DNA of 64,000 nucleotides from Bacillus marasmi (lineage in GTDB: Bacteria; Bacillota; Bacilli; Bacillales; Cytobacillaceae). Below are positions 4,626 to 53,206 of this stretch, piece after piece. Made by a program: the position numbers and the translations under genes. Location of the stretch: positions 62,001 to 126,000 of the forward strand of contig NZ_LR656172.1 of assembly GCF_902168435.1 (NCBI RefSeq). The letters run 5' to 3'. Below the pieces are notes generated by a model, which made no database searches, had not been told where the DNA came from, and was given only the letters and a program-made list of their open reading frames with translations. The first letter of the stretch is position 1; every line of letters starts with the position of its first letter.

Positions 4626-4715
4626 TCAATCACCAAAAACAACCCTAACAGGGACCGCCACAAAAACAAAAACAACAATGATCAGGCTAGCAGGAGGCGC
4701 TTCTAACAACCTCAC
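4626..4715 (-). CDS. Possible 29-aa hydrophobic peptide overlapping the regulator 3' end
   Basis: This ORF starts at a GTG with GAGGG 5 bp upstream, inside the last codons of the TPR regulator and in another frame. It ends 61 bp past the regulator stop. The product has a short N-terminal part, a strongly hydrophobic middle (LIIVVFVFVAV) and a short tail RVVFGD. Peptide genes overlapping or directly following the regulator are typical of the RRNPP family (PapR, NprX, Phr, AimP), and this position fits. The sequence alone does not prove expression, and the layout differs from a classical Sec signal followed by a pheromone. Confidence 0.3.
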   Translation of the reverse strand: MRLLEAPPASLIIVVFVFVAVPVRVVFGD

Positions 4716-5580
4716 TCCAACCCTCGATTTTACCTTTAATATAGTTAATATATTTTTCATCCTTTTGCAGTTCAAAAATAATGAGAGCCCGTTCCATGCA
4801 GGCTTTGGCGCGGCGATAATTCTGCTGCAGCTCGTAATTGTAGCCAACCTGGTAGTGAAGCTCGCCTAACAAATAAAGATTATCTCGCTCGATGCACCAG
4901 TCAATCGCATCATAGCAGTTCTGGTTTGAATCCTTAAAGCGGCCAAGCCTAGTATAGGTGCGCGCGGTGTTGTACATTAACCGGCTCATGATCGTATCAT
5001 CCTGCACATGGGTAATGAGCGCTAAATTCTCCTTTGCCGGGGTATACACATTGAGCGCCTCGTCATACTGCTCCTCCTCAAAATAAATAATCCCTTTAGA
5101 AAGTGAAATTTCAATCTCCCGCTCATTCCAGATTTTATCAAAAGTTAATGAGATTGCCTCGTCCAAGGTTGCTAACGCTTGGTCCTTTTTTTCGTGCAGC
5201 GTGTACTCATAAATCCCTTTATGCCAGAGGAGTTCCTGTAAATGGAGGCGGTTTTCCGCGAACAGCGGGTTTTTCATTTCGGTCTTGACGATTTCTTCTA
5301 TAGTCTCGTAATCGAGGTTACGACGCGCAATTTTTAGTTGGCGACTGACCTCCTGGACGTAGTCGAGCCGTGGTGTTCTGCCGATATCAAAGAAGTAGTT
5401 CACATCGACACCTAGCCGTTGTGAAATGAGATAGAGAGTTGGGGCGTAAGGGTAGACATCGCCTTTTTCGATTTTGCTGACCTGCGCCTGCGTGCAAATC
5501 CCTTTCGCAAGCTCCTTCTGCGACAGTCCATACACCTTGCGTAATTCCTTAATCTTTTTTCCAATGGCCAAAAAATCCAC
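4687..5580 (-). CDS. XRE-family regulator with TPR domain (RRNPP-like)
   Basis: This is a cytoplasmic DNA-binding regulator. An N-terminal helix-turn-helix (residues about 5-60, with LSQKELAKGI and QVSKIEKGD) is joined to a long all-helical C-terminal region whose repeated Tyr/Ala/Leu pattern looks like TPRs (for example YDEALNVY, LGELHYQVGYNYEL and YRRAKACMERAL). The architecture and length (about 297 aa) match PlcR/NprR-type peptide-sensing regulators. A GTG at 5580 with AAAGGGTG upstream fits the family start; the ORF stays open to 5619. If the family function holds, a short imported peptide binds the TPR domain; the overlapping hydrophobic ORF at its 3' end is one candidate. Confidence 0.82.
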   Translation of the reverse strand: MDFLAIGKKIKELRKVYGLSQKELAKGICTQAQVSKIEKGDVYPYAPTLYLISQRLGVDVNYFFDIGRTPRLDYVQEVSRQLKIARRNLDYETIEEIVKTEMKNPLFAENRLHLQELLWHKGIYEYTLHEKKDQALATLDEAISLTFDKIWNEREIEISLSKGIIYFEEEQYDEALNVYTPAKENLALITHVQDDTIMSRLMYNTARTYTRLGRFKDSNQNCYDAIDWCIERDNLYLLGELHYQVGYNYELQQNYRRAKACMERALIIFELQKDEKYINYIKGKIEGWSEVVRSASC

Positions 5581-5617
5581 AACAATCACCCTTTGTCGAT
5601 AAGTTCCTCCGGATAGC

Positions 5618-5875
5618 ATGACGCGAAGGCTTGCAAAGGTGTACTTCGGAGTTTTACTAATATTGTCAATTCTAATGTACCATACAACGAAATATTCCTA
5701 TAATTATGACCTTATAGGGATTGGTAAGGAAATCGGAGAAAACGTCCAATGTATCCGCTTAAATGACCAAATTTGCAAAATTAAAACAAATTGGAATTAT
5801 GGTTTAATTATTAATGAAGTAGTAATGCTATTGGTTTTATTTGTTCATAATGTTTCGTTCGGACCAATTTCATAG
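5618..5875 (+). CDS. Doubtful small membrane ORF, 85 aa
   Basis: This plus-strand ORF is divergent from the TPR regulator. It encodes two hydrophobic stretches (about residues 9-20 and 66-80) around a polar middle. It ends 25 bp before a perfect terminator-like hairpin, which is the main reason to list it. There is no convincing ribosome site at the ATG, and no family is recognised. The region may simply be the regulator's upstream control DNA. Confidence 0.22.
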   Translation: MTRRLAKVYFGVLLILSILMYHTTKYSYNYDLIGIGKEIGENVQCIRLNDQICKIKTNWNYGLIINEVVMLLVLFVHNVSFGPIS

Positions 5876-5930: not shown

Positions 5931-6361
5931 TGTTTAGAGGGAGGTGCTCGCTTCAGGGCACTTCATAGTCCTTTAAATGGAAAAATCAAGAAGTTACAAA
6001 AAGCGACAAAATCCTACTTTCCGTGCGAAAAATATTTCCTTATTCTGATATAAAGTTTATAGGCGAAAAGTAATAGTGTTAAATCGGAAGATAGGTATAT
6101 TGTCATGGAAAAATAACGAGGAAGAACCCATATAAACCATTTGTTCTTTAAAAAGAACAATTAAACCTCTCTGAAAAACTTCCCAAAATGAACATTTTCC
6201 TACAATAGGATGTAGGTTTTCACTATCAAAATATTGCTTCCAAAATGTAGAAAAATGTTGTTTAATAATTAATGCCTTAAAGTATTTATTAACTTAAATA
6301 CAATACGCACTTTAGTAATTAGAATTTCGATATATTTGGTGATAAAAAATTATGGGACTAG

Positions 6362-6645
6362 ATCAGTGTCTAGCTCCGGCGACCAACGTCTAGTGGACTT
6401 CACCCATCTCCTACGATAAGTCAACATCGAATCGCTTGCGCTCTTCGTGTTTCCTTTATCTCAGTCGATGTGCTCCAGTCCATACGACGCTACCCGGTCG
6501 CCTACGCTTTTCGATTTGTCTAGCTCCGGCGGCTAGGGGCTCGGGGTCACAAGTCAATCCGTCAAGAAGGTCAAAGAACGACCTTCATGCCGGCTCGTCT
6601 TGTGCCTGTCGCCCCTGAACGAGCCGCTTCCGCTTTTCGTTTTCG
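6362..6645. repeat. Bacillaceae-type CTAGCTCCGGCG dispersed repeat
   Basis: Two G/C-rich segments start with GTCTAGCTCCGGCG (6369 and 6518) and contain blocks such as AAGTCAACATCGA, CGTGTTTCCTTTATCTCA and CGCTTTTCG. I recognise this as a high-copy intergenic repeat of Bacillaceae chromosomes. It is clearly higher in G+C than the surrounding DNA, codes for nothing, and ends immediately upstream of the first EAR element. Confidence 0.7.
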
Positions 6646-6650
6646 GTGAT

Positions 6651-6765
6651 GCCTCCTTTCCGTTACCAATGGAGACACTCGGCCATGCTGTGGGTTGCGG
6701 GAAACGCAGCCTTAGATACTTGTTGTCAAGAGGATGGTGTGAGGGCGGGTTTGATGCCCGATTAA
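6651..6765 (+). ncRNA. EAR (epsC) antitermination RNA, copy A
   Basis: This segment carries the blocks ATGGAGACACTCGGCCATG, CTGTGGG, CCTTAGATACT, GATGGTGTGAGG and GGGTTTGATGCCC, which match copy B at 11610-11735 block for block. It lies in the 5' leader of an epsC homologue. In B. subtilis the eps-associated RNA lies just upstream of epsC and lets RNA polymerase read through downstream terminators. The closing hairpin GGGTTTGATGCCC changes its loop relative to copy B but keeps its stem. No Rfam search was run. Confidence 0.82.
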
Positions 6766-6777
6766 ATAGTTATGAAA

Positions 6778-6834
6778 AATAGCTAATGAAAGGCCATGTG
6801 CCCGCTTACATGACTTTTCATTAGCTATTATTTT
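6778..6834 (+). terminator. Hairpin between EAR copy A and epsC
   Basis: Arms AATAGCTAATGAAA (6778-6791) and TTTCATTAGCTATT (6816-6829) are perfectly complementary and are followed by ATTTTTG. This is a plausible intrinsic terminator that EAR would have to override. The equivalent hairpin after copy B shares the CTAATGA/TCATTAG core. Confidence 0.7.
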
Positions 6835-6903
6835 TGAAAGGGATGTAACAACTTAACACAACAACCTACAGCCCAAAATTGACCATAGAGAAGGAGGTTC
6901 AAG

Positions 6904-8721
6904 ATGACAATCAAAAAAAGAATTACAACGTTTATCATAGTTGATTCATTGATCGTAATGACAGCTATTTTCCTTAGCTATGTAACGCTTGAGGCGTATT
7001 TACCGAAATATGAACTTCCGATGCTGCTAACGTCATCGATTGCCTTATTGCTTAGCCACCATGTCTTTGCTTACAGTTATAAGCTCTACAACAAAGCTTG
7101 GCGCTATGCCAGTGTCGGCGAACTCGTCGTCATCGTCAAAGTCGTGACCTTTTCAATCCTTGCGACCCTACTCGTACAGCTGATTGCATTCCAAAACATA
7201 TACATAAGAGCCTTATTGCTAACGTGGATGCTGCATGTGCTATTAATTGGCGGTACGCGCTTTTCGCGACGAATCATCGACAGTCGGAACACTACCCGCG
7301 TGAAGGCCTTCAAGCGAACATTAATCGTTGGAGCCGGAGCCGCAGGAACGATGGTCGCCCGTCAGCTTCTATCCAATGGAGACCATGATCTTAAGCCGGT
7401 CGCCTTCGTTGATGATGATAATGCAAAAATCAAGCTCGATATTCTCGGCGTTCAAGTACTTGGCGATACAAGCAAAATCTCCACGATTGTGAAGGAGTAT
7501 GCAATCGATAATATCGTCATTGCGATACCGTCACTTAGTAATAAGGAAATGAAGCATATTATTGACGAATGTGTAAAAACTACAGCCAAAACGCACATTA
7601 TTCCGAAGCTGGAGGATTTAGTAAGTGGTAAGGTCTCGGTAAGTGCCATGCGTGAGGTTCAAGTAGAGGATTTACTCGGTAGAGATCCGATTGAACTAGA
7701 CATGAAAATGATTTCCGAAAACCTTGCCGGAAAAACAGTGCTCGTCACAGGTGCAGGCGGTTCAATCGGTTCTGAGATTTGCCGTCAAGTCTGCCGTTTC
7801 AAGCCGCGAAAAATTGTTCTAGTTGGACACGGCGAAAATAGCATTTACGGAATTGACATGGAACTTCGCAACCAATATCAACAAGACATTGAGATCGTCC
7901 CAGTCATCGGAGATATTCAAGACCGCAAACGGATGCACAAAATCATCAACCAGCATCAACCCAATATTGTTTATCACGCTGCAGCCCATAAGCATGTCCC
8001 ATTAATGGAAGTAAACCCAAGGGAAGCGGTTAAAAACAATATCTTTGGCACAAAAAATGTTGCAGAAGCCGCTCAAACCAATAACGTCGACACTTTCGTC
8101 ATGATTTCAACCGATAAAGCCGTAAATCCAACCAACATCATGGGAGCAACAAAGCGCTTTGCCGAAATGGTCATTCAGCAATTATCACAACAGGGTAAAA
8201 CAAAGTTTGTCGCAGTCCGTTTCGGTAACGTGCTTGGCAGCCGAGGTAGCGTCATTCCGTTATTCAAAAAGCAAATCGCAGCAGGTGGTCCAGTAACGGT
8301 CACCCATCCAGAAATGACCCGTTACTTCATGACCATCCCTGAAGCATCGAAACTAGTCATCCAAGCTGGAGCATTGGCCCGTGGTGGCGAGATTTTTGTT
8401 CTTGATATGGGTGAACCAGTGAAAATCGTCGATCTAGCCAAAAACTTAATCAAGCTATCTGGTTATACAATAGAAGAGATTGGTATTCACTATACGGGCA
8501 TGCGTCCAGGTGAAAAAATGTACGAAGAGCTACTCAACGAAAACGAGGTCCATCCAAAACAAATCTTCCCGAAAATTCATATGGGACGAGCTGTTATGTT
8601 GGAATCAAGACTATTAACACATTTAACCGACAACCTGCTATCCATGTCACCAACAGAAATGCACGATACGCTCATAAAGGTGGCAAATAATAAGTACGAG
8701 TTACGACAGGATCACCAATAA
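6904..8721 (+). CDS. epsC: EpsC/CapD-type membrane sugar-nucleotide 4,6-dehydratase, paralog 1
   Basis: This membrane-bound enzyme is expected to act on UDP-GlcNAc, giving the 4-keto-6-deoxy intermediate for a deoxyamino sugar. Four membrane segments occupy residues 1-123. A first Rossmann motif GAGAAG (143-148) is followed by an SDR domain with TGAGGSIGSE, HAAAHKHVP, STDKAV and MGATKR, where Met takes the place of the usual SDR Tyr, as in the EpsC/FlaA1/PglF family. Length 605 aa is normal. GAAGGAGG sits 8 bp before the ATG. It is about 70% similar by eye to the paralog at 11959. An EAR RNA and hairpin in its leader indicate antitermination control. Confidence 0.93.
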   Translation: MTIKKRITTFIIVDSLIVMTAIFLSYVTLEAYLPKYELPMLLTSSIALLLSHHVFAYSYKLYNKAWRYASVGELVVIVKVVTFSILATLLVQLIAFQNIYIRALLLTWMLHVLLIGGTRFSRRIIDSRNTTRVKAFKRTLIVGAGAAGTMVARQLLSNGDHDLKPVAFVDDDNAKIKLDILGVQVLGDTSKISTIVKEYAIDNIVIAIPSLSNKEMKHIIDECVKTTAKTHIIPKLEDLVSGKVSVSAMREVQVEDLLGRDPIELDMKMISENLAGKTVLVTGAGGSIGSEICRQVCRFKPRKIVLVGHGENSIYGIDMELRNQYQQDIEIVPVIGDIQDRKRMHKIINQHQPNIVYHAAAHKHVPLMEVNPREAVKNNIFGTKNVAEAAQTNNVDTFVMISTDKAVNPTNIMGATKRFAEMVIQQLSQQGKTKFVAVRFGNVLGSRGSVIPLFKKQIAAGGPVTVTHPEMTRYFMTIPEASKLVIQAGALARGGEIFVLDMGEPVKIVDLAKNLIKLSGYTIEEIGIHYTGMRPGEKMYEELLNENEVHPKQIFPKIHMGRAVMLESRLLTHLTDNLLSMSPTEMHDTLIKVANNKYELRQDHQ

Positions 8722-8727
8722 ACAATT

Positions 8728-8770
8728 GAAGAAACTGTTCAGAATTGTAGATTTTGTGACGAGTTTCTTC
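8728..8770 (+). terminator. Hairpin after epsC paralog 1
   Basis: GAAGAAACT (8728-8736) pairs with AGTTTCTTC (8762-8770), 7 bp past the epsC stop. The T-run is weak, so this may be an inefficient terminator or a processing site. From here to 9180 the DNA is A/T-rich with no gene that I can support. Confidence 0.45.
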
Positions 8771-9190
8771 TATATAATATGTAAACGTTTCAAAACCAAA
8801 AGGTAAAAACAGTTAGGTTTGGATTAATGGGGAAAAATTGGTTATGGAATACAGTTTTGGGGATTGCTTTACAAAAGTAATTATCATCATTCACACATCT
8901 GTTAATTAACAACGAAAAAAACATAATTACAGTCGTAAATATGAGTTATTATATTATTATAAAATTCAGGCTTCGAGATTACTAAATTCTCAAATGGTTT
9001 TAATCTCGATTTGCTATTCCGAAAAAAACATAATCATAAAATGCACTTAAATGTTTGTAGAAAATGTTAAGAATTGATGAAATTTTTCCCAATTGACAAA
9101 AACTCCTTTCAATTACCACTAAATTGGTATTACAATAGGTAAGTGGTTCGCATAGTTCGATAAGATAATAGAATAGTAGACAGCGAAATA

Positions 9191-9199
9191 TGATATAAT
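9191..9199 (+). promoter_or_regulatory. Extended -10 promoter element before the wzz-type gene
   Basis: TGATATAAT is a perfect extended -10 (TGnTATAAT), 40 bp before the start codon of the gene at 9240. No good -35 box stands 17 bp upstream, which fits extended -10 promoters. It would give the wzz/kinase/phosphatase genes their own start. Confidence 0.5.
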
Positions 9200-9239
9200 A
9201 CAACAGGTTTATACAAAAATTCGCGCTTCGGAGGATGAA

Positions 9240-9986
9240 ATGGAAGAGACAATTAGCCTAAAAGAATTATTTCAAACGTTGCGGAAAAGACTTGGCTTAA
9301 TTGCTGTCATTACGATAACAGCTGTTCTAATAAGTGGCATCGTTAGTTACTTTTACTTAACCCCGATTTATCAATCATCAACACAATTACTGGTAAATCA
9401 AACAAAAAATGAACAAGCAGTATATAGTCCAAGTGAGGTTCAAACAAACCTTCAATTAATAAATACTTATAATGTCATTATTAAAAGCCCAGCAATACTA
9501 GATTTAGTTGCAGGCACAATTGGTAATGATATGTCGGCGTCACAATTAAGCTCAAAAATCACTGTCGGCAGTGAAAAGGACTCACAGGTCGTAAATATTT
9601 CTGTCCAAGATCCTGATCCTGCGATGGCGGCGAAAATTGCTAATACAGTTGCCGGAGTGTTCCAAAAAGAGATTGTTAATATTATGAATGTTGATAACGT
9701 TAGCATCCTAGCAAAAGCATCAGTACCTGAAAATCCTTCACCAGTTAAGCCAAATCCAGAGTTGAATATTGCGATTGCTTTAGTTGTTGGATTGATGGCT
9801 GGAGTGGGGATTGCTTTCTTACTAGAATACTTAGATAACACTATTAAGACAGAACAAGACATCGAAAAAATCTTAGAGATGCCTGTATTAGGTGTGATCA
9901 CAACGATTGAAGAAGAAGAGTTGAAAGTTGCCAGTCATCGCGCGCGGAAAAATCATAAAGTAAGAGGTGAGACTGTTGGTTCTTAG
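9240..9986 (+). CDS. Wzz-domain chain-length / BY-kinase modulator (CapA/EpsA type)
   Basis: This membrane protein controls polysaccharide chain length and activates the partner tyrosine kinase. It has a transmembrane segment at residues 18-39, an extracytoplasmic domain, the motif PENPSPVKPN before a second transmembrane segment (about 173-193), and a short cytoplasmic tail. This is the usual 248-residue layout of Firmicute CapA/CpsC/EpsA proteins. CGGAGG is 6 bp before the ATG. The 3' end overlaps the kinase gene, so the two are translated together. Confidence 0.93.
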   Translation: MEETISLKELFQTLRKRLGLIAVITITAVLISGIVSYFYLTPIYQSSTQLLVNQTKNEQAVYSPSEVQTNLQLINTYNVIIKSPAILDLVAGTIGNDMSASQLSSKITVGSEKDSQVVNISVQDPDPAMAAKIANTVAGVFQKEIVNIMNVDNVSILAKASVPENPSPVKPNPELNIAIALVVGLMAGVGIAFLLEYLDNTIKTEQDIEKILEMPVLGVITTIEEEELKVASHRARKNHKVRGETVGS

Positions 9987-10686
9987 AAAAAAAACAACAA
10001 CATCACATAGTCAAAAACGTAGTCTCATCACTAAATTAGCACCAAAATCATCTATCTCTGAGCAATACCGTACAGTTCGGACTAATATCCAGTTCTCTTC
10101 AGTTGATGAAGAAATCAAATCGATTATGGTGACTTCTGCAGATCCGTCAGAAGGAAAATCAACAACGGTAGCCAACCTAGCGGTAACGTTTGCGCAACAA
10201 GGCAAGAAAGTCCTCCTTGTTGATGCCGATATGCGGAAACCAACCGTTCATTATACATTCCAAGTTGAAAATATTTATGGCTTAACGAATGTGTTAACAA
10301 AAATTAAAACATTAGAAGAAGCAATATCACATACGGATGTTGAACATTTAGATATTTTAACGAGCGGTCCAATCCCGCCGAATCCAGCCGAGTTATTAGG
10401 CTCAAAGGCGATGTTAGAGTTTTTAACTACAGTAGAAGAAAAGTATGACGTGATTCTTTTTGATACGCCACCGATTCTAGCTGTGACTGATGCGCAAATT
10501 TTAGCAAACTTGTGTGAAGGTAGCGTGCTTGTTGTTGCTAGTGGGAAAACGGAAATTGAGAAGGTAACCAAATCCAAGGAATTATTAGCTCAAGCAAAAG
10601 GTAAACTTCTAGGAGCTGTCCTTAATAATAAGAAAATGGATAAATCTAACTACTACTATTATTATGGCACGTACGGACATAAATAG
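9976..10686 (+). CDS. BY-type tyrosine kinase (CpsD/CapB/EpsB)
   Basis: This cytoplasmic autokinase pairs with the Wzz-type modulator and regulates polymer assembly. Walker A (SEGKST, residues about 59-64), Walker A' (VLLVDADMRKP) and Walker B (VILFDTPP) are all present, and the C-terminus carries the autophosphorylated tyrosine cluster (NYYYYYGTYG). The ORF is open from a GTG at 9967, but GAGGTGAG is best placed for the TTG at 9976, giving MVLRKK, the common family start. It overlaps the previous gene by 11 bp. Its phosphatase follows about 100 bp later. Confidence 0.94.
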   Translation: MVLRKKTTTSHSQKRSLITKLAPKSSISEQYRTVRTNIQFSSVDEEIKSIMVTSADPSEGKSTTVANLAVTFAQQGKKVLLVDADMRKPTVHYTFQVENIYGLTNVLTKIKTLEEAISHTDVEHLDILTSGPIPPNPAELLGSKAMLEFLTTVEEKYDVILFDTPPILAVTDAQILANLCEGSVLVVASGKTEIEKVTKSKELLAQAKGKLLGAVLNNKKMDKSNYYYYYGTYGHK

Positions 10687-10784
10687 GTAACATTCGACAA
10701 ATTTCACCCATTTACCACTGAATTTCATGATGTTATGATGAAAATCGTCAGAGGAAAAAGACTAATGTAAGGGGCTTGGTAGCG

Positions 10785-11549
10785 ATGATTGATGTCCATT
10801 GTCATATATTGCCGAACGTAGATGACGGCGCTCAAACTATAGAAGAAAGTATAGCGATGGGACGTGCTGCCGTCGAGCAGGGAATTACTTCAATCATTGC
10901 TACCCCGCACCATAAAAATAATCAATACGAAAACACAAAACCACAAATTCTAGCTGCTGTAGCTGAACTCAATCAAGCATTCCAGGCCGAGGGAATTCAA
11001 TTAGAAATTCTCCCTGGCCAAGAGATTCGGATTTTTGGCGAGATACTCGAAGACTACCAAAGGCAAGAAATCCTATCGTTAGCAAACTCCAATTATATGT
11101 TAATTGAATTACCGACTGGGCAGGTTCCGCGCTATACGGAAAAGTTACTCTACGACCTGCAAATGGAAGGTCTAGTCCCAATTATTGCTCATCCTGAACG
11201 GAATCAAGAGCTTGTACAGCGTCCAGACCTTCTCTATCAGTTTGTTAAAAAGGGTGCACTAACCCAAGTAACAGCTGCGAGTGTTTGTGGTGCTTTTGGG
11301 AAAAAAATCAAGCATTTTTCGCATCAGCTTATTGAAGCAAACTTAACGCATTTCATTGCTTCAGATGCTCATAATCTCGCAGGTCGCACGTTTATGATGA
11401 GGAAAGCTTTTAAAGAAATACAAGCTAAATACGGAATGGATACAGTGTACCTGTTTCAAGAAAATGCCGAGTTACTAGTTGAAGGTTCACGAGTGTATAA
11501 AGAAATGCCAGAACGAATCAAAAAGAAGAAAATATTTGGAATCTTTTAA
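10785..11549 (+). CDS. PHP-family protein-tyrosine phosphatase (CpsB/YwqE)
   Basis: This metal-dependent phosphatase removes phosphate from the BY-kinase tail and so resets the polymer assembly cycle. The four PHP metal-binding motifs can be seen: HCHILPNVDDG at the N-terminus, TPHH (about residue 41), AHPER (about 137) and SDAHN (about 196). Length 254 aa is typical. The ATG at 10785 with AAGGGG 10 bp upstream starts the PHP motif directly; the ORF is open from a TTG at 10776. EAR copy B lies just downstream. Confidence 0.94.
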   Translation: MIDVHCHILPNVDDGAQTIEESIAMGRAAVEQGITSIIATPHHKNNQYENTKPQILAAVAELNQAFQAEGIQLEILPGQEIRIFGEILEDYQRQEILSLANSNYMLIELPTGQVPRYTEKLLYDLQMEGLVPIIAHPERNQELVQRPDLLYQFVKKGALTQVTAASVCGAFGKKIKHFSHQLIEANLTHFIASDAHNLAGRTFMMRKAFKEIQAKYGMDTVYLFQENAELLVEGSRVYKEMPERIKKKKIFGIF

Positions 11550-11609
11550 AAAGAAATACTGAGTGGCTGATCAATGAAGTTTACATCTTATGTCAGGCTT
11601 AATCCTGAT

Positions 11610-11735
11610 CGGCGAGGCTTCCTGTCCGATATCGATGGAGGCACTCGATCATGCTGTGGGACATGCGGATGTGTGGTCCTTAGACGCTAGTCGTCAATAG
11701 CATGGTGTGAGGCTGGGTTAGATGCCCAATTATCT
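11610..11735 (+). ncRNA. EAR (epsC) antitermination RNA, copy B
   Basis: This element lies between the kinase-phosphatase genes and an epsC homologue, exactly as EAR lies between epsB and epsC in B. subtilis. The blocks GATGGAGGCACTCGATCATG, CTGTGGG, CCTTAGACGCTAGTCGTCAA, CATGGTGTGAGG and GGGTTAGATGCCC align with copy A. Differences fall in predicted stem positions and loops. The copies are similar but not identical, so this is not a recent duplication. Bases 11550-11609 and 11848-11958 hold no gene that I can support. Confidence 0.85.
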
Positions 11736-11798
11736 TTTAATAACTGAGCGAAACGATAATGATTGCGGTTGCATCATACAAATATCGAAAATATCGAT

Positions 11799-11847
11799 AA
11801 ATATCTAATGATAGTTCGTGTGGGACATGGGTTATCATTAGATATTT
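11799..11847 (+). terminator. Hairpin between EAR copy B and epsC paralog 2
   Basis: AAATATCTAATGATA (11799-11813) and TATCATTAGATATTT (11833-11847) are perfectly complementary over 15 bp. The run after the stem (ATTTG) is short, so termination may be weak. Position and CTAATGA core match the hairpin after EAR copy A. Confidence 0.6.
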
Positions 11848-11958
11848 ATTTGTGTAAAGACTTTACACAGTTAGAAATGGAATATTTTCTATTTAGAATA
11901 TTCCGCAAACTCAAGTGCTTTTATGGGGGTATTTTGCAAAAGAAAGGAACTGATTGCT

Positions 11959-13779
11959 ATGGCCTACAGGACGAGGATCACAATCCTAGCATTGCTCGAT
12001 TCTATTATTGTACTAACTGCAATTTATATTAGTTTTTTAACCTTACATCCTAATCTATCAATCTTGGCCATGCCGACTTTGCTGTTTACTTCGCTTTCAT
12101 TGTTACTTAGCCATCATTTATTTGCTTCTATTTATAAGCTTTATAAGAAAGCATGGGAATATGCGAGCATTGGTGAAGTAAAATCAATCGTCAAGGCTGT
12201 CACCTTCTCAATTGGGATAACATTGGTCATGCAATTGATTGTCTTCCAAGATGCCTATTTGCGTGCATTATTAATCACTTGGATGATTCATATTATCTTG
12301 ATTGGTGGATCACGAATTTCCTGGCGCTTAGTAAGGGATCGATACATTAAAACACAGAAACAAATGAAACGGACTTTGATTGTTGGTGCCGGTGCAGCTG
12401 GGACGATGGTTGTGCGGCAGCTTTTGAATAATCATGATACTGAATTAAAACCAGTAGCATTTATCGATGATGATCCGAGGAAATACAAGTTAGATATTTA
12501 TGGATTAACAGTGGTTGGAAATGCTGGGCATATTGCAAAGACGGTTGAAACGTTGCAAATCGATCATATTGTGATTGCGATTCCTTCATTAAGCAAAGCA
12601 GAATTAAAACGAATTTTTGATGAATGCTCAAAAACAAAGGCAAAGACGCAAATCATTCCGATGATTGAGGATATTATGCTTGGAAAAGTATCGGTTAATA
12701 GCTTCCGTGATGTTCAAGTTGAGGACTTGCTAGGTCGTGAACCAGTAGAGTTAGATATTGCTGGGATTTCGGAATATGTTAGTGGGAAGACGGTGCTTGT
12801 TACAGGTGCTGGCGGTTCGATTGGCTCGGAAATTTGCCGGCAGATTTGTAAGTTTAACCCAGGTCGGCTTGTATTAGTTGGGCATGGTGAGAATAGTATT
12901 TATGGTATTGATATGGAGTTACGGAATTCTGTTTCAGCTTCGGTAGAAGTTATTCCTATTATCGGGGATGTTCAGGATAGAGAGAGAATGTTTGAGATAA
13001 TGGATGAGTATCGTCCGGCTGTGGTGTATCATGCTGCGGCGCATAAACATGTTCCACTAATGGAGTATAACCCTAGAGAGGCAGTAAAAAACAACGTATT
13101 CGGCACAAAAAATGTGGCAGAGGCTGCTGATACCTATGGTGTCGATACTTTTGTGATGATTTCTACTGATAAGGCAGTTAATCCTACTAATGTAATGGGA
13201 TCGACGAAGCGGATTGCGGAGATGATTATTCAGGGGCTTGATCGGACGAGTAAGACGAGGTTTGTTGCGGTTCGGTTTGGGAATGTCCTTGGTAGTCGTG
13301 GTAGTGTGATTCCGTTGTTTAAAAAACAGATCCAAGCCGGTGGGCCGGTGACGGTTACCCATGAGGATATGACTAGGTACTTTATGACAATACCAGAAGC
13401 CTCAAGGCTTGTGATTCAGGCGGGATCTCTTGCAAGAGGTGGGGAGATTTTTGTGTTGGATATGGGTGAGCCTGTTAGGATTGTTGACCTTGCTAGAAAT
13501 CTTATAACCCTTTCGGGTTATTCCGTTAATGAGATCGGGATTCAGTTTTCTGGGTTGAGACCTGGGGAGAAGATGTTTGAGGAATTGCTGAATGAGAAAG
13601 AGATCTATCCTGAGCCGGTTTATCCGAAGATTTTTATTGGGAAGGCTGTTTTGGAGCAGGAGGGGGAGGTTGAATACCTACTGAATCAGTTTGAAGAGTT
13701 TACTCAGGATGATGTTAGGGAGTATGTTATTAACTTAGCTAACAGGCGTACTAACGAGCGGTTAATGGTAGCGGAGTGA
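11959..13779 (+). CDS. epsC: EpsC/CapD-type membrane sugar-nucleotide 4,6-dehydratase, paralog 2
   Basis: It has the same architecture as paralog 1: four membrane segments, GAGAAG nucleotide-binding motif, then an SDR domain with TGAGGSIGSE, HAAAHKHVP, STDKAV and MGSTKR. The likely role is a UDP-GlcNAc 4,6-dehydratase feeding the downstream deacetylase, formyltransferase and reductase. The ORF is open from an ATG at 11923, but the ATG at 11959 has AAAGGA upstream and aligns with the start of paralog 1 (MAYRTRIT versus MTIKKRIT). Codon use drifts to G-ending codons in the second half, unlike the first half and unlike its neighbours. Confidence 0.93.
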   Translation: MAYRTRITILALLDSIIVLTAIYISFLTLHPNLSILAMPTLLFTSLSLLLSHHLFASIYKLYKKAWEYASIGEVKSIVKAVTFSIGITLVMQLIVFQDAYLRALLITWMIHIILIGGSRISWRLVRDRYIKTQKQMKRTLIVGAGAAGTMVVRQLLNNHDTELKPVAFIDDDPRKYKLDIYGLTVVGNAGHIAKTVETLQIDHIVIAIPSLSKAELKRIFDECSKTKAKTQIIPMIEDIMLGKVSVNSFRDVQVEDLLGREPVELDIAGISEYVSGKTVLVTGAGGSIGSEICRQICKFNPGRLVLVGHGENSIYGIDMELRNSVSASVEVIPIIGDVQDRERMFEIMDEYRPAVVYHAAAHKHVPLMEYNPREAVKNNVFGTKNVAEAADTYGVDTFVMISTDKAVNPTNVMGSTKRIAEMIIQGLDRTSKTRFVAVRFGNVLGSRGSVIPLFKKQIQAGGPVTVTHEDMTRYFMTIPEASRLVIQAGSLARGGEIFVLDMGEPVRIVDLARNLITLSGYSVNEIGIQFSGLRPGEKMFEELLNEKEIYPEPVYPKIFIGKAVLEQEGEVEYLLNQFEEFTQDDVREYVINLANRRTNERLMVAE

Positions 13780-13795
13780 AATGATGTGAATTTTG

Positions 13796-13834
13796 CAGTT
13801 CCCTTCTTTATGGGAAGGGAACTGTTGATTTTTA
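13796..13834 (+). terminator. Rho-independent terminator after epsC paralog 2
   Basis: CAGTTCCCTTC (13796-13806) pairs with GAAGGGAACTG (13814-13824), followed by TTGATTTTTATT. It would end the regulatory module, or be read through under EAR control, before the sugar-modification genes. Confidence 0.8.
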
Positions 13835-31900: not shown

Positions 31901-32525
31901 GGGACATAGGTCAGGTTCACTGTCCCACCATCTTTTGATAGTTCGATAGTTAGCTGGGTGAATCATGTCCCAATCGATTACTATTTTTATATATTTTTTG
32001 TAGGAATTTTAGCAATAGTAAGGTACATAGGGCTTCTTCCCCTTCATTTTAGGCATTGAATCCGTCAGTATACTGACAGTTAGTTATCGTCAATTTCAGA
32101 ACATTACCGGGACCTGTCCCTGTGGCCTTCTCATAGTATGATGTCCTCTGAACATTAGTTTGGGGGACTGCTTTCATTTGGAATGACACTTTAGTGCGTT
32201 AATTCATTAATTTGTTAATCTGGAAATGCGATGTAGATTTCTAAACTTTTTTCCAATATTGAATGGATTATTTCATAGGGTTTTTTTCAGTTTTTATTTT
32301 GAAAAAAAGCTTATATACGGAATCGGTGCCATGGTGAATAACAGATTTTGATACGAATGTTGCTTCTATGGGACGGAGTGATTGATCAACTATGTACAAG
32401 GGCTCGTTTGTTTCGATTTGTTCTTCAGCCGCTTTGATGATCCTAGCAATATGCGCAATATCTGCAAGCCTTTCTTCCCTGATAATAGCATGTGTAGAGG
32501 CATTCAAGAATTGTAATATATACAT
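31901..32525. repeat. Large repeat module, copy 1, lacking the REP head
   Basis: This segment starts GGGACATAGG and runs through CACTGTCCCACCATC, GAATCATGTCCC, CTGTCCCTGTGGCC and TTTGGGGGACTGC to the end of an 84-residue minus-strand ORF. It matches 35142-35767 almost throughout and 33194-33477 in part. Unlike the other copies it has no GGGGACGGTTCC hairpin at its left edge. Bases 31821-31900 hold nothing recognisable. Confidence 0.85.
32268..32522 (-). CDS. Repeat-borne 84-aa hypothetical protein, copy 1
   Basis: This protein of unknown function starts MYILQFLNAS and is near-identical (about 90% by eye) to the product at 35513-35767. Changes between the copies are mostly conservative (Ile/Val, Asp/Glu, Lys/Asn), which suggests that coding was kept for some time. 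Its ribosome site is poor here (AAAGGA at long spacing), unlike copy 2. It is the only ORF in the 620-bp repeat module. There is no membrane segment or recognised motif. Confidence 0.5.
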   Translation of the reverse strand, partial: YILQFLNASTHAIIREERLADIAHIARIIKAAEEQIETNEPLYIVDQSLRPIEATFVSKSVIHHGTDSVYKLFFKIKTEKNPMK

Positions 32526-33117: not shown

Positions 33118-33477
33118 AAACACGGGGACGGTTCCGGTGTTTCCCTAAAAATTTCCATTTCGTGGAGCGTTTGACGCTTACAACTATCTAGGAGGGACAT
33201 AGGGTCAGGTTCACTGTCCCGCCATCTTTTGGTAGCTCGATAGTTAGCTCTGTATGAATCATGTCCCAAACGATTACTATTTTTATATATTATTTGTAGG
33301 AATGTTAGCAATAGTAAGGAACATAGGGCTGCTTCCCCTTCATTTTGGACATTGAATCCATCAGTATACGGACAGTTAGTTAACGTCAATTACAAACAAC
33401 ACCGGGCCCTGTCCCTGTGGCCCTCTCATAGTATGATGTCCTCTGAACATTAGTTTGGGGGACTGCTTTTATTTGGG
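33116..33477. repeat. REP-headed element, truncated copy
   Basis: It starts with the hairpin GGAAACACGGGGACGGTTCC...GGTGTTTCCC, then a 45-bp linker ending CTATCTAGGAGGGACA, then the GGGACA/TGTCCC module as far as CTGCTTTTATTTGG. It stops exactly where the next REP begins at 33478; in copies 1 and 35063 the same sequence continues towards the 84-residue ORF. The left edge cuts the IS110 gene. Confidence 0.85.
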
Positions 33478-52730: not shown

Positions 52731-52895
52731 GTGTGCCAGGCATGTTCACTAACTAGGCAGTGAAAGTCCGCTATGGACGTTGGGATATTCGATCCATTAG
52801 CCGAAGGCAAGGTGTCCGTGGTGACGCTGAATCTGAAGGAAGCCCTAGGCAAATCCTCGGTCTGAGGTACACGAACCACATTCGAGGTTGTCATT
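52731..52895 (+). ncRNA. Group II intron 5' fragment (domain I)
   Basis: The segment starts GTGTGCC and contains CAGTGAAAGTCC, GCCGAAGGCAAGGTGTCC, GAATCTGAAGGAAGCC, CTCGGTCTGA and CGAACCACATTCGAGG in the order found in domain I of bacterial group II introns. No reverse-transcriptase/maturase ORF and no domain V follow, so it is a dead 5' remnant. The small ORF through it is a shadow. Its left edge follows a GGACA...TGTCCCACCA repeat. Confidence 0.72.
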
Positions 52896-53206
52896 TCAGG
52901 ACGAGTTTATTTCTCCCATTCCTGGGGTGTTTGGTGGTATACCTATTCATATGATTGAAATAGAACAATTCATATGTTGAAGTCAGGTAAATAAATATTC
53001 TTGCGAGGAATTTCTGTTTAGGATTCTGATGATGGGTAAACAAATGATATCGTAAAAGTCGGGAAGAGAATAATCCTCATATTAAAAAGGCTAGGCTGAG
53101 AGTATTAACTCTACGTCCTGGCTACTTTTTTGGGGAAAATTAATCGATAAATATGCACACGTTGAGCAGTTTGTATAATACTGGGTGATATACTGGTAAT
53201 GAATAG

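Follow-up and report, generated by a model that had tools for sequence, protein, structure and literature searches.

EAR antiterminator RNAs and their companion hairpins in a Bacillus marasmi exopolysaccharide locus and its relatives

The eps-associated RNA (EAR; the epsC RNA of Rfam, RF01735) is an antiterminator RNA of Bacillales polysaccharide operons. A 64,000-nt stretch of Bacillus marasmi DNA (GCF_902168435.1, contig NZ_LR656172.1, positions 62,001-126,000 of the forward strand; referred to here, at its full length, as the window) carries two EARs in leaders of exopolysaccharide genes, and each of them is followed by a hairpin that lies outside the 117 positions of the Rfam model. This pairing of an EAR with a companion hairpin is not special to the locus; it is common in the family. 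The companion hairpins are sorted below into two types, A and B, and the one found in the window, type A, works, to judge from its sequence and folding, as RNA in the sense transcript. What it does there must be weighed among several possibilities. We lean, with a confidence that falls a little short of even, toward a leaky NusG-type pause or terminator placed beside the EAR.

Two EARs, two hairpins and two epsC genes

The genes and RNA elements of the locus (Table 1) lie in the order EAR1-hairpin 1 (H1)-epsC1, epsA, epsB, a ywqE/CpsB-type phosphatase gene, and EAR2-hairpin 2 (H2)-epsC2, with the two EARs 5 kb apart. An initial annotation, made from the letters of the sequence, had taken both leader RNAs for EARs and had placed each of them, with its hairpin, before an epsC paralog. 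That assignment holds: both RNAs match RF01735 over its full length and score well over its gathering score of 42; they sit in leaders of exopolysaccharide genes such as epsC, as RF01735 members should; and the two epsC products are full-length EpsC-type proteins of clear kinship to each other.

H1 and H2 have a CTAATGA/TCATTAG core in common, which begins 22 nt past EAR1 and 76 nt past EAR2, respectively, and no shuffled sequence (0 of 200 in each case) matches the fold energy of either. The stems had been described as perfect and of 14-15 bp. Core and stems are real, and the stems are longer than that once G-U pairs and the inner stems are taken into account, and not uniformly perfect: in H1 an outer run of 16 contiguous pairs (G-U among them) is followed by one mismatch and 6 inner pairs, and H2 has 26 contiguous pairs (including G-U). 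Across the 4.64 Mb of the genome, the pattern CTAATGA-N10-40-TCATTAG finds these two places only, and its reversed control finds one.

The genome's third EAR, on contig C21 (locus L119, 7167-7275), is followed on its 3' side by a 23-pair hairpin that is without the CTAATGA core. Both EAR/hairpin pairs recur in a genome of the same genus (G013), at 6.9 kb from each other (L118), and this genome has a third EAR (L110) whose hairpin is similar to that of the third EAR of B. marasmi; in another genome of the genus (G014) the 12 kb around the type-A site (L230) hold one EAR and an H2-like hairpin only. Two EARs in close neighbourhood are also seen in a distant family, where they lie ~0.5 kb apart on one contig (G249:C42, 9106-9221 and 9758-9876).

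Companion hairpins in the family and beyond

The family EARs considered here are the best-scoring ones among the matches listed. They number 133, including the three of this genome, with the duplicate L119 dropped; the sequence downstream of one of them (L069) is too short, so that downstream counts refer to 132. At 121 of these 132 EARs, the first 150 nt downstream contain a hairpin with 18 or more pairs. The corresponding figures are 25 of 132 for shuffled sequence, 38 of 133 for the region upstream and 29 of 132 for the region from +200 to +350. The companion helices are long, with a median of 25 pairs. The initial annotation had seen in the two EAR/hairpin copies of the window a sign of two independently switched segments. 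Since the pairing is so common in the family, the copies are by themselves no argument for two independent switches, and EAR1 could act past H2, because a review regards EAR as acting processively (PMC7858274).

Type A (n = 32, collected with a loose pattern) has TAATG/CATTA arms and a T-rich tail. Type B (n = 86) comprises all other hairpins of at least 18 pairs and below -14 kcal/mol, and it includes type-A-like variants (L009, L025, L033 and L113) along with chance hairpins in coding sequence. The sequence of type B is variable, and double compensatory changes are found at 21 of 22 pairs in an alignment of 59 of 73 reference sequences, from which 14 near-duplicates or odd ones had been dropped by eye beforehand; 94.1% of the cells of that alignment pair; shuffles give 73.7%, and sliding the alignment gives no more than 50.8%. 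The loop centre of type B lies 35.5 nt past the EAR (interquartile range (IQR) 34-37, n = 86); the start codon follows the hairpin at a variable distance (median 28 nt, IQR 18-56, n = 84). Type A is more loosely spaced from its EAR (IQR 45.5-68, n = 32) and precedes the next start codon by a median of 65 nt. A recognisable end of ywqE stands 5' of 25 of the 32 type-A hairpins and of 6 of the 86 of type B, in counts that rest on short protein-end motifs.

When the type-A pattern, ATCTAATGN{14,42}CATTAGRTATTTATTT, is run over 84,980 species, it selects 61 loci. Their genera include Bacillus, Neobacillus, Mesobacillus, Cytobacillus and Peribacillus, and further Jeotgalibacillus, Pontibacillus, Rossellomorea and Pseudalkalibacillus; two loci come from entries labelled Paenibacillus sp. 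and Chryseobacterium sp. Of the 61, 55 have a same-strand EAR 12-104 nt upstream of the hairpin. One further locus (L164), cut at its edge, is the same site as L243, where the EAR lies 37 nt upstream, and in another (L146) the hairpin is 2.1 kb past an EAR. A related pattern matched 76 of 193 family genomes, mostly at one place each, and its reversed control matched none. The type-A alignment (59 rows, 2 from the window and 57 named, with L139, L146, L164 and L191 of the 61 loci left out) was pattern-chosen, so that the invariance of its stem positions is in part a product of the selection.

Among 28 EAR loci of other families, in which hairpins were judged by eye, three (L197, L198 and L202) have a long helix without a U-tract between the EAR and the epsC ribosome site, and these are probably B. 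subtilis-group-like. A hairpin is likewise present at L199, L207, L209, L211 and L222; apart from the loci without a hairpin that are taken up below, the rest are ambiguous.

Sense-strand RNA, pausing and the alternatives

Of 68 non-redundant type-A hairpins, 58 fold more stably on the sense than on the antisense strand (an earlier count, over 87 sequences in which named and unnamed entries overlapped, was redone on these 68 unique cores). Locating the hairpins on the sense strand first introduces a bias, with controls favouring sense in 100 of 119; with the antisense strand used first for location, 91 of 115 still have their more stable fold on the sense strand, and the controls favour antisense in 49 of 82. 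The inner stem covaries as RNA, and the outer stem is near-fixed in the alignment, in part because the search pattern imposes it. These properties argue firmly that the type-A hairpin works as RNA in the sense transcript. The CTAATGA palindrome might instead be a DNA-level site, such as a protein-binding operator, a recombination site or a mobile repeat, and its near-perfect inverted repeat, with a core that is fixed in the pattern-selected loci, has the look of one; but its half-sites stand anywhere from 24 to 42 nt apart, the preference for the sense strand persists under antisense-first location, the inner stem covaries, and the occurrence at mostly one place per genome is not that of a mobile repeat. 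We set the DNA-level site aside as highly improbable.

A different role in RNA was also considered, namely a local antiterminator formed by pairing of the EAR P1 loop with the 3' arm of the hairpin. It was rejected: over 57 EAR/hairpin sets duplex energies are no better than those of shuffles (median p 0.42 when the arm was shuffled and 0.45 when it was the EAR), and in 10 of the 57 sets it is the P1 loop that holds the best pairing.

The base and tail of type A are of a particular kind. Only 3 of the 340 lowest stem pairs (five in each of 68 hairpins, the sequences being partly pattern-selected) are G-C, and the weak, A-U-rich base is followed by an interrupted U-tract with the motif TTNTTT. 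The motif stands 3' of 27 of the 32 EAR-anchored type-A hairpins (mirror 7; shuffles 12.1, s.d. (standard deviation) 2.4), is present at both hairpins of the window, and stands 3' of 40 of the 86 hairpins of type B (mirror 18; shuffles 12.7, s.d. 2.7). Weak hairpins with terminal A-U or G-U pairs, interrupted U-tracts and TTNTTT are reported to characterise the NusG-dependent terminators of B. subtilis, and a NusG domain with the changes Y77H/N81S/T82V reportedly failed to promote pausing at the motif (PMC8060035). The NusG of the B. marasmi genome (translated from L248) has Y77, N81 and T82. With a U-rich tail on the sense strand that contains TTNTTT, type A may plausibly act as a terminator or pause.

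A leaky pause or terminator would work as follows. Each EAR of the window would be one half of a two-part module, with the core of the companion hairpin following 22-76 nt on. RNA polymerase would slow at the weak A-U base of the stem and the TTNTTT/U tract; unmodified polymerases would partly halt there, so that fewer would enter epsC and the genes that follow it, and EAR-modified polymerases would pass the hairpin and then override later terminators. The terminator-like hairpin at 13795-13825 may be one of these, and is a candidate distal target of EAR2. The pause may also allow the EAR time for folding and loading.

A good deal weighs against this proposal. A canonical intrinsic terminator has a G-C-rich stem base and a U tract, and the base here is A-U; a simple terminator scan of the + strand accepts H2 and not H1; there is little T past the stem of type B; and TTNTTT is reportedly necessary for NusG pausing without being sufficient (PMC12288461). 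Judged by eye, there is no such hairpin at L203 and L206, which are from the same genus as L197, L198 and L202, and eleven loci of another family (f19) have an EAR without a companion hairpin. Conversely, type-A hairpins occur where a search at E up to 1 finds no EAR (L176, L191, L192 and L193) or with none detected (L226 and L227), and these six EAR-less hairpins precede epsC or galU, with reading frames that are open across the available sequence. For two of the genomes found with the related pattern (G138 and G149), no EAR is among the family matches listed. When G149 (L227) is compared with an EAR-bearing relative (L244), the alignment, at 83%, runs from just 5' of the hairpin into epsC, and the upstream gene aligns at 78%; the EAR stretch itself is without alignment. 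At L191 and L192 the interval that separates the type-A hairpin from the gene 5' of it holds other strong stem-loops, as judged by eye.

Because six sites keep the hairpin without a detected EAR and with open frames downstream, the type-A hairpin is not a complete stop, and whatever brake it may apply cannot be absolute. The suggestion that the hairpins are the first terminators that EAR overrides thus survives in part. It is plausible for type A, on the strength of the U-rich tail and TTNTTT; it fails as an account of a full stop that only EAR relieves; and it fails as a general explanation, because type B has little T past the stem and the three B. subtilis-group-like hairpins have no U-tract. 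For the same reason the canonical terminator is also rejected as a general explanation.

The companion hairpin might instead be an element of mRNA stability or processing, placed where the epsC message adjoins the EAR (or the epsAB-ywqE message 5' of it); an exonuclease block there, or a cut by a double-strand-specific RNase, would set the levels of both parts without termination. The long helices and the covariation of type B, the retention of hairpins where no EAR is detected, their position ahead of the next start codon in both types, and the B. subtilis-group-like helix without a U-tract all accord with it; it leaves unexplained the enrichment of T-tracts and TTNTTT on the sense strand and the tight distance of type B from the EAR, and we consider it unlikely, though worth keeping in sight. 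That tight distance, kept although the start codon stands at varying distances, and the presence of a hairpin after most EARs would be accommodated if the hairpin were a structural extension of the EAR, stacked beneath or alongside it at the RNA exit channel, that aids its loading or retention on RNA polymerase and does not itself terminate. The looser spacing of type A, its occurrence without a detected EAR and the f19 EARs without a hairpin speak against such an extension, which we judge improbable.

The setting of the locus and its known relatives

Table 1. Features of the exopolysaccharide locus, in coordinates of the window
Feature	Position	Strand	Evidence or remark
SinR-operator-like palindrome GTTCTTTAAAAAGAAC, 5' of EAR1	6143..6158	+	perfect; one match in 64 kb vs mean 0.01 in shuffles
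EAR1 (RF01735)	6644..6760	+	cmscan 111.2 bits, E 1.8e-18, model 1-117
H1, type-A companion hairpin, GCTAATGA / TCATTAGC	6778..6829	+	-26.5 kcal/mol, z -7.6
U-rich tail of H1, TTATTTTT, contains TTNTTT	6828..6835	+	sequence, motif test
epsC paralog 1 (Polysacc_synt_2)	6904..8721	+	open reading frame (ORF), Pfam 429 bits
epsA-type chain-length protein (Wzz)	9240..9986	+	ORF, profile match
epsB-type tyrosine kinase	9967..10686	+	TIGR01007 254.9 bits, over its cut-off
ywqE/CpsB-type phosphatase (PF19567)	10776..11549	+	ORF-list bounds
EAR2 (RF01735)	11610..11728	+	cmscan 99.1 bits, E 6.6e-16, model 1-117
H2, type-A companion hairpin, TCTAATGATA / TATCATTAGA	11796..11850	+	-27.9 kcal/mol, z -7.1
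TTATTT (TTNTTT) at H2 base and tail	11846..11851	+	sequence, motif test
epsC paralog 2	11959..13779	+	65% identical to paralog 1, Polysacc_synt_2
Terminator-like hairpin directly 3' of epsC2	13795..13825	+	terminator scan; 14 pairs, 6 G-C, T-tail

GTTCTYT, which we take to be the SinR consensus, occurs as a word in two papers on SinR, and the genome has three SinI-domain matches, one of them on the contig of the window. A dispersed repeat (6350-6643) abuts the start of EAR1; this 294-bp stretch matches 73 times in the genome, several of the matches being in tandem with a period of ~120-125 bp. Its simple end motif stands beside EAR1 only, among the 133 family EARs, and a similar CTTTTCG end is found at the EAR in two loci of another family (L205 and L207). 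A regulator of the RNPP family (helix-turn-helix and RNPP_C domains; 4687-5619, - strand) adjoins the polysaccharide locus. Elsewhere in the window there is a group II intron D1-D4-3 match (52815-53024, 46.6 bits), and an identical terminator-like hairpin sequence occurs twice, at 32143-32168 and 33438-33463, 1.3 kb apart.

No description of the companion hairpin was found in the literature searched, of which partial texts were at hand, though the original EAR paper, reportedly that of Irnov and Winkler in 2010, may mention it. According to the review already cited, EAR antiterminates several distal intrinsic eps terminators as well as heterologous ones (PMC7858274). The epsC motif, with a personal communication from Winkler on antitermination and a pseudoknot that he predicted, appears in PMC2864571; the structure line of the window's RF01735 matches does not display that pseudoknot. 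The window EARs are like those of RF01735 in their full-length matches before epsC genes; they differ in having a companion hairpin beyond the model and in being two in one locus.

Type A resembles the NusG-dependent terminators and pauses of B. subtilis, as described in PMC8060035 and PMC12288461, in its A-U/G-U stem base, interrupted U-rich tract and TTNTTT, and in the NusG pausing residues of the genome. It differs from them in adjoining an antiterminator RNA and in its recurrent CTAATG stem core. The put RNAs of phage HK022 and the protein-plus-RNA conAn system of pLS20 likewise use RNA in processive antitermination past terminators (PMC8955417). They are compared by description only, and the available text of PMC8955417 describes no dedicated companion hairpin for them.

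For the family at large we would suggest, more tentatively than for the window hairpins, that EAR is a two-part device in many Bacillaceae-type bacteria, in which an antiterminator RNA is joined by a dedicated companion hairpin. Of the two structural types of this hairpin, type A, with its recurrent CTAATG stem, would be a NusG-directed pause or terminator, controlling the passage of polymerases at the point of EAR loading and able to persist in evolution after EAR itself has been lost. The way in which EAR takes hold of RNA polymerase is, to our knowledge, not settled. Where loading or discrimination may occur can be approached through the hairpin directly past the EAR, with its near-constant spacing in type B and its NusG pause motif in type A, and the natural operons that have the hairpin without an EAR offer ready comparisons.

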